A DNA stretch of 64,000 nucleotides from Leptolyngbya sp. (lineage in GTDB: Bacteria; Cyanobacteriota; Cyanobacteriia; Leptolyngbyales; Leptolyngbyaceae). The notes under the pieces are model-generated. The model did no database searches and was not told where the DNA came from. It was given only the letters and a program-made list of their open reading frames with translations. Shown here one piece after another: positions 29,347 to 36,002 of the stretch (its first letter is position 1; every line of letters begins with the position of its first letter). The position numbers and the translations under genes are program-made. The stretch spans positions 1 through 64,000 of the forward strand of contig QBMH01000003.1 in NCBI GenBank assembly GCA_003249025.1, in the 5' to 3' direction.

Positions 29347-32028
29347 ATGACTTTTTCCCAGGAGCCGCCTCAAGATCGCATCGTCCCCACAGATCTACGA
29401 AACGAGATGCAGCGGTCTTACCTGGAATACGCCATGAGCGTGATTGTCGGGCGAGCGCTCCCCGATGCTAGAGATGGGTTGAAGCCAGTCCATCGGCGAA
29501 TTTTGTATGCGATGCATGAGTTGGGTTTAGCCCCCGATCGCCCCTTTAGAAAGTGCGCCCGTGTGGTGGGGGAAGTGTTAGGTAAATACCATCCCCACGG
29601 CGATACAGCGGTTTACGATGCCTTGGTGCGGATGGCGCAAGATTTCTCCATGCGATCGCCCCTGATTGACGGTCACGGCAACTTTGGCTCGATTGATAAT
29701 GATCCACCCGCCGCCATGCGGTATACCGAGTGTCGCCTGCGCCCCCTGACGCGGGATGCTCTGTTGCAGGATATTGAATCGGAAACGGTCGATTTTGGCG
29801 ATAACTTTGATGGCTCTCAGCAGGAACCGCTGGTCTTGCCCTCTCGCATTCCTCAACTGTTGCTGAACGGGTCTTCTGGAATTGCCGTCGGCATGGCAAC
29901 CAACATCCCGCCCCACAACTTGGGCGAACTGATTGATGGGCTAGTTGCCCTGATTCACAATCCCGACATCACGGTGCAGGAGTTGATGCACTACATTCCT
30001 GGACCAGACTTTCCCACGGGTGGGCAAATTTTGGGTTTAACTGGCATTCGTGAAGCCTACAATACGGGGCGCGGTTCTATTATCATGCGTGGGGTTGCCA
30101 GCATTGAAACGATTGAGCATCGCGGCAGACCCGATCGCGAAGCCATCATCATCACCGAGCTACCCTACCAAACTAACAAAGCCGCGCTGATTGAAAAAAT
30201 CGCGGAAATGGTAAACGAGCGCCGCTTAGAAGGCATTTCAGATATTCGAGACGAGAGCGATCGCGATGGGATGCGAATCGTGATTGAACTGCGGCGCGAT
30301 GCCTATCCCCGCGTTGTCGTCAATAATCTCTACAAGCAAACTCCCCTCCAGACAAACTTTGGGGCAAACATGCTGGCGCTGGTGGATGCCTACCCACAAC
30401 TGCTTAGCCTCAAACATTTTCTCTCTGTTTTCCTAGATTTCCGCATCGTCACAATCACCCGCCGCACTCAATACCAACTGCGAAAAGCGGAAGAGCGGGA
30501 TCATATCTTGCAAGGGTTACTGATTGCCCTGCTGAATCTAGATGCCATCATTATCTTGATTCGCGGTGCCGCCGATGCTCCTACTGCGCGGTTGGAATTG
30601 ATTGAACGATTTGGTCTGTCAGACGTTCAGGGGGATGCTATTTTGCAAATGCAACTGCGCCGCCTCACTGCCCTAGAAGCCGATAAGATTCAGCATGAAC
30701 ATGATGATCTGCAAACTCAAATTGCGGACTTGCGGGATATTTTGGCACGTCGAGAACGGATTCTAACGATTATTGAAACAGAACTTGCTGCAATCAAAGC
30801 TGCTCATGCTACTCCTCGCCGCACGGTGATCGAGCAGTCGGAAGATGAGATCATGGATGCGGATCTGATTGCCAATGAACGAGCGGTGATTTTGCTGACC
30901 GAGCAAGGCTACATCAAACGGATGCCCGTCAGCACGTTTGAATCCCAAAATCGGGCAACGCGGGGCAAGTCGGGCACCCGGATGAAAGATGATGATGGGG
31001 TGGAACAGTTCCTTGCCTGTCGCGATCACGATAGCATTCTGTTCTTTAGCGATCGCGGCGTGGTTTACTGCCTGCGAGCCTATCAGATTCCAGTTAGTTC
31101 TCGGACTGCCCGTGGGACTGCCATTGTGCAGCTATTGCCCATTCCTCACAACGAAAAAATTACCTCCATCGTTCCCGTTAGCGAGTTCAGCGAAGATGAG
31201 TATTTGGTGATGCTGACGAATAAGGGCTACATCAAAAAAACGGCGCTTTCGGCGTTTAAGAATATTCGTGCCAATGGCTTGATTGCGATTTCGCTGGAAG
31301 AAGCCGATCTGCTGCGCTGGGTGCGTCGTGCCCGTGCCGAAGACACGATCTTAATTGGTTCTCAGTTTGGTAAGTCGATTCACTTTCGGGCAAGCCACGA
31401 TCAACTGCGTCCTCTCGGTCGCGCCACGCGGGGTGTGAGGGCAATGGCACTCCGTAAAGGCGATAGTTTGGTGGGACTAGATATTTTGCCCAGCGAGATT
31501 GTGGAAACTCTCGCGGCTGATCTGGAGTCCGATAGCAGCGGCGAGGATGAGGTGACCAGCGATGACGCGACGGAAACCTTGGAAGCTTTAGAAACAGCGC
31601 CTTCCGGTCCTTGGATTTTGACGGTGACTGCCTACGGCTATGGTAAGCGGGTGCCTGTGACCCAGTTCCGCTTACAAAATCGGGCAGGCATGGGTATTGT
31701 GGCGACGAAGTTCCGCAAACCCGGCGATCATATGGCATCGCTGCGAATCGTCCATGAGGGCGAAGAGTTGATGCTGATCACCAATCGCGGCATTATCATT
31801 CGCCAAGCAATCAATGCCATCTCTTGTCAATCTCGCGCTGCCTCTGGGGTACGCTTGCAGCGATTGGATGAAGACGATGAGATTGTGGCGGTGGCGCTGG
31901 TGCCTGCTTCGGATGCAGAAGAAGATGCCCTGCTGGATGGGGAAACGGAAAGCGGGGAAGCGGCGATCGCAGCCTCTCCAGTTTTAGAAGCAATCACAGC
32001 AGAAGCCAGCGCACCAGTCGAAGAATAG
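29347..32028 (+). CDS. gyrA: DNA gyrase subunit A
   Basis: An 893-residue type IIA topoisomerase subunit that breaks and rejoins DNA during negative supercoiling. The N-terminal breakage domain has [40 protein letters not shown] and the active-site Tyr126 in PPAAMRYTE. The C-terminal beta-pinwheel begins near residue 500; its GyrA box is seen as [13 protein letters not shown], with a related repeat [10 protein letters not shown]. An acidic insertion of about 30 residues (about 725-750) lies between blades, and an Ala/Glu-rich tail ends the protein. A terminator hairpin follows closely. Confidence 0.95.
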
Positions 32029-32041
32029 GTTACATTCCCAG

Positions 32042-32088
32042 GCTGAGCTTGCGTCCTTTGAATGCTGATGCAAGCTCAGCTTTGTTTG
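32042..32088 (+). terminator. Terminator of gyrA
   Basis: GCTGAGCTTGC (32042-32052) pairs perfectly with GCAAGCTCAGC (32070-32080) and is followed by TTTGTTTG. It lies 14 bases after the gyrA stop codon. Confidence 0.85.
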
Positions 32089-32231: not shown

Positions 32232-35200
32232 ATGGCGGCAACCACTTCATATCAATTTTGGGACTTGCTAGGCGGCGTATTTAGCCTTAGCCTAGAAGCC
32301 TTTCAAGAGATTGCCGCCCTAAATAGAGGGATATTGCCATCGGTGCTGGTGGTGCTATTCGCCGGTTTATCCTTGGGGATTGGGCAAAGCATTGTGCTTT
32401 TCATCAACCGGGTTAAACCGATTCGCTTTGTCTTTAGTCTGTTGCTCAACGCCGTTCTGTTTACATTCGGCTTTTTCTTTCTGGCATTTAGCACTTGGTT
32501 GATTTGTTTGTTGCCTTGGTCGGTGCATGTTTCCTTCAAAACTCTGATCAAAGTATTTGGGTTCAGCTATGCGCCCCAGTTATTTAGCTTTTTAGGCGCT
32601 TTGCCCTACGCGGGACTTCCCATTCTAAATATCTTGTCGGTTTGGCGGTTGCTAGCAGCAGTGGTGGGCTTTGAAGCTGCCGCTGGAGTGGATGGCGCAA
32701 CGGCATTTGGCTACGTTGCCTTTGGCTGGGTGGCACTGCAAGTTTTGGAAGGTAGCATTGGGCAACCGATCGCGAGATTGGGGCAAACCCTTGCCGATCG
32801 CGTGGCTGGCGTGGAACTCGCAGATAATCGCTCTGATCTGCGGGATCGGGTGCAGGCGGGACGAGTGGCGGCTCCCATCGTGGCTGCCACTCAAACTACC
32901 GCACCAGAAATGAATCAGTTGATTCAAGCTTCGGATCGCTCCGATCCAGCCGCCGCCCAAGCCGTTGCTCAAGCCGTTGTCAATAATGCAGGCAGCACAC
33001 TGGCTGCCACCATCACTCAACGGGCGGATATCTCTGATCCACTGATGCAACTTCAGCAAAAAAACAGTGGCATTCCCCAGCAGATCAAGCTACTGGCGGG
33101 TTTGCTGGCGATGATTGTCGTATTTGTGGCGATCGCCCTGCTGCTGCGCCCGATTCGAGACAATTTATTTGGCTGGCACAACAATTTACCCAAGCTATTC
33201 AAATTTGTCTTTGATTTAATTTGGATTGGAGTCGTGGCGATCGTCTTTGCGGCAATTCTGGCTCCTCTAGAAACCTTGGGCTGGTGGGCTGGCTGGTATG
33301 GCGACGACCTAGACACTAGCCAAACTGTGATTGTAGATGATGCGATCGCATTATCTACAGTTTCAAGTAACCCCATATCCCGTTACATCGTTTATCTAGA
33401 TGGCGTTGGGCAATCGGGCGACAAATATACCCCCGACATCGTGGATTTTCTGAATGCATTCACGCCAGCACTGCCCAAAGATATGGAACTGGTGCAGGGA
33501 TTGATGATGTATTCCGTTTTGAATCAACCCTTGGATCAAGATCGCCCCCTGGCATTTGTTTGGAAACTGGCAGACAAGATGCGATGGAGCAACCCGGCAG
33601 CAATTTTGGGGCTAATGCTAAACCTGCGAAATGTATTCATTGTGGCGGTTTTAGCCGATAAGCGCTATGGTCCAATCTACAATCAGGGCATTGCTCAGGT
33701 GCTTTACGATGGCTTAACCAAACGCGGCTATCAACCCGGAAGCGGCATCCCGATTACGCTGATTGGCTATAGCGGCGGCGGTCAAATGTCCATTGCATCT
33801 GCGCCTTACCTGAAACGAGCAACAGGCGCGCCGATCGAGGTGATTTCCCTAGGCGGCGTGATGAGCGCCAACAATAATTTACTCAAGCTGGAGCATCTCT
33901 ACCATGTGGCTGGAGACAAAGACTTTGTTGAGCGGATTGGTCCAGCCATCTTCCCCGGTCGCCGCAAGTGGTTTCCCCTGTCCTACTGGAACCGGGCGAT
34001 GCGACGGGGTAAAATCACGCGACTGTCGATGACAGGGATAGGGCACCAGGTTCCCGGTGGCTACATGGACCCGCAAGCGACATTGCCCGATGGACGCACC
34101 TACCTGCAAGCGACTATTGAACTGATTCTGCAAATCCTGCGGGGTGAGCTGCTGCTGGCGGATCAAACTATTCCCCGGAAAGCCAGCAATTATTCGCTAT
34201 ATCAGCAGATCGCTTTTCTCCATTCTGACTACTATCCACTGGATCAAACGGTCGATCCGACGCTGTATCAACCGATTAATGCCTGGATGGGGCGACTGAT
34301 CTTGCCTCAACCAGAGGAACGCGCCCAAGTGAAAGGGGTGCTGTTTGAGGTGCATCACGCGCCAGTCGAGTATCAGCAGTGGGTTGGGCAGGTGGTGAAT
34401 CTACGCTGGGCAAATCGCCCAATTCTCAAAAAGCTGGTGATAGCGGTGACAAAGGATGTTCACTTTAGCGCCGATGCCGAATATAGCAGTAAGTATGGCG
34501 GATCGGTGAATCCCGATCGCTTGAACCATTGGCGACAAGTGGGTCCGCTGGAATCTTTAGCAGGCTGTCATCCTGTTGATGACATGATTGTGATGCTGAA
34601 TTATCCAGTTGACGTTGAGCAAGTGGAAAGTAAAAAGATTGGTGAAGATCAATCGCTTAACCTTTATATCCGCAGTCTGCCCGTAGAAATCACCGGGCGC
34701 TACTATGCCGTGGTTCAATTTTTGGCACCTGTGGCGACAGAACAGTATCGAGTAGCGCATTTCAATCGCGATTCTCAGCAGTTTGATGGCGCTCAGGAAG
34801 TGGTTTCGGTGCCCCAAGTGTTAATGGCACCCGAATATGGCAGCTATCCCTCAACAACCCGCAACCTTGAGCGATCGCCCTTAAATGAAATGGGGTGGTA
34901 CATTTACGGCGCGAAGAATGCAGCGGGTGTGTTTGTGGTGCAATCCTTGGCTCCTCGGTCATTGTTTCGGTTGCAGCCGGAGGAGGTTGCTTTTGGGTCG
35001 AAAGTGGGCTACCGCTATATTCGCAAACGCTCTTGGGCAGAGGCTACAGCGCAAAAAGGTAAGATTTCGTCGGTGTTGTGTGCGCCAAAATCGAATGGAT
35101 CATCGGGTGCGATTCAAGCGGCGATCAACGATTGGCAGGAAGGCGGTAGCGAAGCGTTTCCGGAAGGAACTCGCGCACTGCTGATCCATACCTATGGCGG

Positions 35201-36002
35201 GATTGGCGGTATTCAAAAAGAACCCGCTGCCGCTACCCCAATTTTCTTTGGGCACTTTGCCTATGGCATGGCTGAAGTGGTGCGAGAACCGCTGACGGGT
35301 GAACTGCGCTTTGAGATCGTCTATCACCAGGTCTATTGCCAAAATACCGATGGTCTCACGGCTGGAACAATCCATTGGTCGCGCTATATGGGCGATCGCC
35401 AACTGGGTTGGGCAGGCACCCGCCCCACCTGCGACCTTCTGGTTAAGCTGGATGCGTTTACCAAAGACTACGACGTGAATGGTGAGAAAAATAGCCCCTT
35501 GAATTTGATGATGCGTCAGTTGCAAGTGATGACTTCTCGCTATCGGATTGGTGATGGCACGGGCGCTACATTTGTCGGTCTTGCCAATAACTGCGCCCAA
35601 GACTCAAACCAGGCATTATTTGCCAGCATTCAACAAACGACCAACGCTCTGCAAGCTAACCCAGAACTGCTGCGATCGCTAATGGCAGACCCAGAACAAG
35701 CACAACGGTTTCAAGTGCTGCAAAAGTTGGGTCAAGAACTTCAGTCTAAGCTTCAGCCCCTAGGCGGTCCCCGCTCTGATTGGGCAAAGAACGAGTTTAA
35801 CTTGGGTAGTACGATGGAAGATAACCCACTACAAAATCTACGAATTGGGCTGGGAAGCTGGCGCACCGTGCTTCCACGGCTTGCCAGCGATACTGTTGTT
35901 CGTGTTTTCTTAAAGCATGGTGCCACCGTTTGGGTGCTTCGGACTAGCCAGATTGGCGGCTATGATCCAAATATCGCCCCGATCGCACCCATGACGCTTT
36001 AA
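32232..36002 (+). CDS. Large membrane protein with alpha/beta-hydrolase core
   Basis: This 1,256-residue protein belongs to no family I can name with confidence. Residues 1-170 carry four or so hydrophobic helices resembling a Yip1-type domain. A soluble stretch follows, then two more helices near 280-340. An alpha/beta-hydrolase region spans about 385-640 with nucleophile elbow LIGYSGGGQ (Ser514), an acidic candidate in AGDKDF (Asp562 or Asp564) and His605 in GIGHQVPGG, so a lipase/esterase triad looks complete. Residues about 640-1256 form a long uncharacterised region with mixed strands and few hydrophobic segments. It faces the cmpD gene convergently with only 19 bases between them. Codon use matches its neighbours. 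Confidence 0.75.
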   Translation: MAATTSYQFWDLLGGVFSLSLEAFQEIAALNRGILPSVLVVLFAGLSLGIGQSIVLFINRVKPIRFVFSLLLNAVLFTFGFFFLAFSTWLICLLPWSVHVSFKTLIKVFGFSYAPQLFSFLGALPYAGLPILNILSVWRLLAAVVGFEAAAGVDGATAFGYVAFGWVALQVLEGSIGQPIARLGQTLADRVAGVELADNRSDLRDRVQAGRVAAPIVAATQTTAPEMNQLIQASDRSDPAAAQAVAQAVVNNAGSTLAATITQRADISDPLMQLQQKNSGIPQQIKLLAGLLAMIVVFVAIALLLRPIRDNLFGWHNNLPKLFKFVFDLIWIGVVAIVFAAILAPLETLGWWAGWYGDDLDTSQTVIVDDAIALSTVSSNPISRYIVYLDGVGQSGDKYTPDIVDFLNAFTPALPKDMELVQGLMMYSVLNQPLDQDRPLAFVWKLADKMRWSNPAAILGLMLNLRNVFIVAVLADKRYGPIYNQGIAQVLYDGLTKRGYQPGSGIPITLIGYSGGGQMSIASAPYLKRATGAPIEVISLGGVMSANNNLLKLEHLYHVAGDKDFVERIGPAIFPGRRKWFPLSYWNRAMRRGKITRLSMTGIGHQVPGGYMDPQATLPDGRTYLQATIELILQILRGELLLADQTIPRKASNYSLYQQIAFLHSDYYPLDQTVDPTLYQPINAWMGRLILPQPEERAQVKGVLFEVHHAPVEYQQWVGQVVNLRWANRPILKKLVIAVTKDVHFSADAEYSSKYGGSVNPDRLNHWRQVGPLESLAGCHPVDDMIVMLNYPVDVEQVESKKIGEDQSLNLYIRSLPVEITGRYYAVVQFLAPVATEQYRVAHFNRDSQQFDGAQEVVSVPQVLMAPEYGSYPSTTRNLERSPLNEMGWYIYGAKNAAGVFVVQSLAPRSLFRLQPEEVAFGSKVGYRYIRKRSWAEATAQKGKISSVLCAPKSNGSSGAIQAAINDWQEGGSEAFPEGTRALLIHTYGGIGGIQKEPAAATPIFFGHFAYGMAEVVREPLTGELRFEIVYHQVYCQNTDGLTAGTIHWSRYMGDRQLGWAGTRPTCDLLVKLDAFTKDYDVNGEKNSPLNLMMRQLQVMTSRYRIGDGTGATFVGLANNCAQDSNQALFASIQQTTNALQANPELLRSLMADPEQAQRFQVLQKLGQELQSKLQPLGGPRSDWAKNEFNLGSTMEDNPLQNLRIGLGSWRTVLPRLASDTVVRVFLKHGATVWVLRTSQIGGYDPNIAPIAPMTL

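Follow-up and report, generated by a model that had tools for sequence, protein, structure and literature searches.

In S. aureus the N-acylation of lipoproteins is carried out by two proteins acting together, LnsA, an NlpC/P60 protein, and LnsB, a remote member of the CPBP family, and both are needed (PMC7387801). The circularly permuted NlpC/P60 enzymes are characterised by a His that precedes the Cys in the sequence and by a signature Tyr, and a fatty acid was found in the active site of one of them, YiiX (PMC3142127). The locus described here, located in a 64,000-nucleotide stretch of Leptolyngbya sp. DNA (the window), codes for a protein that is a fusion of three separable modules, named A, B and C, which are also encoded as separate units elsewhere. 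Our preferred explanation, which we hold tentatively, is that these modules were joined into an envelope enzyme that has two predicted active sites and acts on lipids or acyl groups. The ORF and the region preceding it are:

32232..36002, + strand, whole ORF (A-B-C fusion), 1,256 amino acids, intact
32042..32080, + strand, 11-bp inverted repeat followed by TTTGTTT, putative gyrA terminator, identified by reading the sequence

The position of the ORF and its 1,256 intact codons were confirmed, and a search of related genomes identified a homologue in a genome of the same genus that is 89% identical from end to end (residues 1-1256). Homologues of the product were found in 32 of 58 related genomes. 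The ORF is a genuine gene, far beyond what chance would generate, and its product is a widely conserved cyanobacterial protein. Searches of Pfam, NCBIfam, PADLOC and PDB sequences assigned it to no family, in agreement with the sequence-only reading, an earlier inspection of the stretch that could not match the architecture to a described family; literature searches located no paper on the family and no studied member. A known defence system was rejected on the basis of the PADLOC search.

The gene upstream of the ORF is gyrA (29347-32028, + strand). The inverted repeat and T-rich tail located 3' of gyrA are probably a terminator that separates the two genes, although a consensus scan found terminator-like sites of this type to be no commoner than in shuffled sequences. 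Because this structure follows gyrA, the ORF is probably transcribed as a unit of its own. A meaningful linkage to gyrA was discarded, as gyrA is not recurrent beside the homologues. Downstream, between nucleotides 36022 and 38893 of the - strand and convergent with the ORF, there are two nitrate-type ABC transporter ATPase genes, named by inspection of the sequence; the C-terminal part encoded by the longer one is substrate-binding-like.

To obtain the modules, the protein was cut at residues 215/275 and at residue 640, and each piece was searched for in the loci of related genomes:

32232..32876, + strand, module A (residues 1-215), polytopic membrane domain resembling Yip1, with about five helices, from Pfam and the predicted model
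residues 276-640, + strand, module B, two helices followed by an alpha/beta hydrolase
34152..35999, + strand, module C (residues 641-1256), unnamed domain, defined by alignment and an AlphaFold2 model

This search showed that A, B and C are independent, being found in relatives as separate or differently fused genes. A survey of gene arrangements included 112 non-redundant loci, with the full ABC fusion present in 65 and ABC located beside a gene for C fused to a CPBP-like extension (C-CPBP) in 3 further loci. The other arrangements consisted of separate A and B genes lying divergently side by side (11 loci), A adjoining a BC gene (9), BC only (8, some of them cut by contig ends), C-CPBP (8), C alone (6) and split fusions (2). 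The genome that includes the window has three members, namely the full ABC protein, an A gene whose neighbour is a BC gene cut by the contig end, and a C-CPBP protein. In a phylogenetic tree the C-CPBP proteins cluster together (support 98), as do the C domains linked to B (support 99), and within the latter group the state of fusion has changed repeatedly. Among 291 genomes drawn evenly from the phylum, 37 had C and 34 had B, and comparison of the two lists showed both in 22. All of 80 named loci are cyanobacterial except one binned as Gracilibacteria; the contig in question is labelled as a Candidatus Gracilibacteria MAG, has an ABC gene of the usual cyanobacterial kind and was probably mis-binned.

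The Yip1-like helical start seen in the sequence-only reading is supported, as the Pfam family Yip1 matches 16 of 34 module A homologues (best E value 1.8e-9), the window copy itself falling below the Pfam reporting level. The module is encoded by a separate gene in relatives, and its helices are present in the predicted model. With respect to the orientation of the protein, the basic loop that joins helices 6 and 7 and the acidic stretch after helix 7 would, by the positive-inside rule, favour a location of B outside, but the rule gives conflicting answers and the number of helices in A does not fit this scheme. C-CPBP proteins begin with a signal-like helix, and several C-only proteins have neither a signal nor a transmembrane helix. 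Five C-only proteins that lack both a signal peptide and a membrane helix, three of which are nested among the B-linked C domains in the tree, are possibly truncated or cytoplasmic forms.

Module B begins with the two additional helices that had been noticed before, which were found by hydropathy and in the model, and continues with the catalytic part:

33084..33281, + strand, two transmembrane helices (residues about 285-306 and about 325-350)
33369..34151, + strand, catalytic part, alpha/beta hydrolase (residues 380-640), from alignment and Foldseek
33771..33773, + strand, Ser514, predicted nucleophile in an S-G-G motif at a strand-helix elbow, invariant in 33/33
33921..33923, + strand, Asp564, predicted triad acid following strand 555-561, invariant in 33/33
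34044..34046, + strand, His605, predicted triad base following strand 595-600, invariant in 33/33

The sequence-only reading had predicted a hydrolase with Ser514, His605 and either Asp562 or Asp564. The alignment included 33 sequences with 27-90% identity, the separately encoded ones showing 27-31%. Some of them have G, A, E or Q instead of Asp562, which was rejected; because Asp564 is invariant while Asp562 varies, Asp564 was taken as the triad acid. In the predicted model Ser514 falls precisely where strand 508-513 gives way to helix 515-531, and the acid and the His come after it in that order, each of the three residues following a strand. The predicted strand order of module B and the positions of Ser514, Asp564 and His605 are thus those of a canonical alpha/beta hydrolase. 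The model of A plus B is of moderate quality (pLDDT 65, pTM 0.54). The best Foldseek matches were dienelactone hydrolase, APT1 and esterases, with probabilities of 0.96-1.0 but E values of 0.03-0.1; nearly all top matches to B were alpha/beta hydrolases and none passed an E value of 0.001. Because the E values were at least 0.03 and the model pLDDT was 65, these matches support the assignment to the alpha/beta hydrolases but do not prove it. Relatives of module B reach Sinorhizobium, Microvirga and Nonomuraea, where they are part of a three-gene run that includes an MGT-type glycosyltransferase, a membrane protein of 163-170 amino acids and, after these two, the B-module hydrolase. The Microvirga glycosyltransferase matches TIGR01426, the macrolide family, at 1.6e-112, and module C was not found on the records from these three genera that carry B. 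The small rhizobial membrane protein shows a weak resemblance to module A (hhalign probability 45%), so that homology between their sequences is suggestive only.

The long C-terminal region, which had been reported as an uncharacterised tail, is an independent folded domain that is also independently encoded, and its AlphaFold2 model is confident (pLDDT 88.5, pTM 0.91). Searches revealed neither a Pfam family nor a PDB sequence match for it. The structural searches that had been proposed as a check led to alpha/beta hydrolases for B and to no fold match for C, for which nothing in the PDB or in BFVD, a library of viral structures, was found at an E value of 0.001 or below. What is added to the earlier description is that the tail constitutes a separate domain family with a predicted Cys-His site and alternative membrane partners, and that the three modules can be separate genes. 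An alignment of 39 relatives, down to 36% identity, includes many invariant Gly and Trp and the following residues:

35253..35255, + strand, His1008, within the motif G-H-F/Y, at the first position of a strand, invariant in 39/39, predicted base of the active site
35541..35543, + strand, Tyr1104, within the motif RYRxGDGxG, nearly invariant, candidate equivalent of the signature Tyr seen in permuted NlpC/P60 enzymes
35592..35594, + strand, Cys1121, within the motif CxQDSxQA, at the first position of a helix, invariant in 39/39, predicted nucleophilic thiol

DSSP analysis of the model of module C assigned the strand of His1008 to 383-393 and the helix of Cys1121 to 496-516 (model numbering). 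The position of His before Cys, with the former on a strand and the latter on a helix, is a feature of the permuted NlpC/P60 enzymes, and these predicted properties suggest that module C holds a second, cysteine-type active site formed by Cys1121 and His1008. Comparison of profiles by hhalign between module C and 25 Peptidase_C92 sequences gave no match (probability below 1%), and no LRAT, YiiX or P60-type fold was present among the 50 best PDB matches. We therefore consider the kinship to permuted NlpC/P60 enzymes a lead, which comes from the order of the residues and the predicted secondary structure, and do not assign membership. The Lnb_N/DUF4105 family was rejected for C: C showed no match to it, and none of 59 genomes of the phylum has it, among them the genome of the window, which carries C.

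The absence of recognisable enzyme homology for C in profile, sequence and fold searches is what would be expected if B were the sole enzyme and C a non-catalytic partner or substrate-recognition domain, with its Cys and His being structural or metal-binding. The many invariant Gly and Trp suit a structural domain as well, and the membrane partners to which C is joined are of two unrelated kinds. We consider this explanation somewhat unlikely, since a His at the start of a strand and a Cys at the N-terminus of a helix, kept in every one of the aligned relatives down to the most distant, resemble the active site of a thiol enzyme.

The second kind of membrane partner is found in 13 C proteins with a C-terminal extension bearing an EExxxR-like motif. 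These proteins have 820-933 amino acids, and some have Q or S in place of the first Glu of the motif. The two extensions tested match the Rce1-like family PF02517 (9.7e-12 and 3.1e-9). The last His motif of the extension consists of HW followed by a residue other than Asn or Asp at the usual position, HxxxN/D being absent. With C and a CPBP domain in one chain, these proteins could belong to a system that modifies lipoproteins or proteins by acylation, where C would be LnsA-like and A/B or CPBP would act as the membrane partner. Such a system seems quite unlikely to us, in part because an Lnt-type enzyme is generally present in cyanobacteria. The altered His motif does find a parallel in LnsB, whose greatest divergence is reported to be in motif 4 (PMC7387801). 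On the other hand, LnsA has only 189 amino acids and module C about 600 residues, and the likeness between them is an analogy by domain pairing.

The genes surrounding the homologues are consistent with a function at the envelope. DUF3611 genes were found in the flanks of 16 of the 112 loci, which are not independent of one another, while about 0.5 would be expected by chance, as estimated from the roughly 72 copies that 39 related genomes contain, over an equal length of DNA. Several times the DUF3611 gene is directly adjacent to the ABC or BC gene, tens of bases away and on the same strand. Other recurrent membrane genes, given as raw counts over the 112 loci, are YihY (13), DUF308/HdeD (8), holin-like (6) and AI-2E-type (6). 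Eight loci form islands in which the DUF3611, ABC and YihY genes share a strand, and several of them add DUF308/HdeD. The window copy has no DUF3611, YihY, DUF308/HdeD, holin-like or AI-2E-type neighbours. This recurrence of membrane genes suggests an envelope-stress setting.

The survey revealed no recurrent biosynthetic genes near the cyanobacterial copies, and a hydrolase that processes specialised metabolites or glycosides, a role close to the polyketide or peptide processing that had been proposed earlier beside a membrane-bound lipid role, is most improbable, its sole hint being that B homologues adjoin a macrolide-family glycosyltransferase and a small membrane protein outside the cyanobacteria, as on rhizobial plasmids and in Nonomuraea. 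The lipid role remains the best guess.

In the preferred reading, that of an envelope enzyme with two sites, module A and the two additional helices would anchor the protein in the membrane. Module B, with its Ser514-Asp564-His605 triad located beside the bilayer, would attack a lipid or acylated molecule at an ester or thioester bond. Module C, probably through Cys1121 and His1008, would use a thiol to hydrolyse or transfer acyl groups, like the permuted NlpC/P60-LRAT enzymes, making it a papain-like catalyst that may cooperate with B. The likely job of such a protein would be the editing of lipids or lipid-modified molecules during envelope maintenance or stress. A domain of about 600 residues that is widespread in cyanobacteria and confidently predicted has been without a family name and is unlike the solved structures found. 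Its alternative fusions, to CPBP or to Yip1 plus a hydrolase, point to membrane-linked enzymology with predicted active-site residues that can be tested. If proteins that include C do edit lipids or lipoproteins, a step so far unrecognised would be added to the biology of the cyanobacterial envelope.

Each module can be compared with a described system. Module A shares with the Yip1 family (Pfam PF04893) a small polytopic membrane domain, but it is fused to a hydrolase and the window copy is below the reporting level. Module B has in common with alpha/beta hydrolases such as dienelactone hydrolase, acyl-protein thioesterase 1 and esterases the predicted strand order and Ser/Asp/His triad; it differs from them in its low identity (about 12%), in the lack of a Pfam match for the window copy and in being membrane anchored. 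Module C has the same predicted order of His (strand start), Tyr and Cys (helix start) as LRAT and YiiX, while its length is about 600 residues and that of the solved B. cereus permuted NlpC/P60 enzyme is 195 (PMC3142127). The CPBP/Rce1-like family (PF02517) is the C-terminal partner of C in the sister proteins, which lack the usual Asn/Asp in the final His motif, and the ABC protein has no CPBP domain. In the staphylococcal LnsA/LnsB system an NlpC/P60-type enzyme is teamed with a CPBP-like membrane protein, and the C-CPBP proteins may show the same pairing, a resemblance that by analogy is suggestive. Taken further, and in our opinion unlikely in this full form, C could be a new family of thiol enzymes that cyanobacteria plug into different membrane partners, and ABC would then be a single-chain acyl-editing machine, with one site releasing an acyl group and the other transferring it, as the cyanobacterial counterpart of LnsAB.
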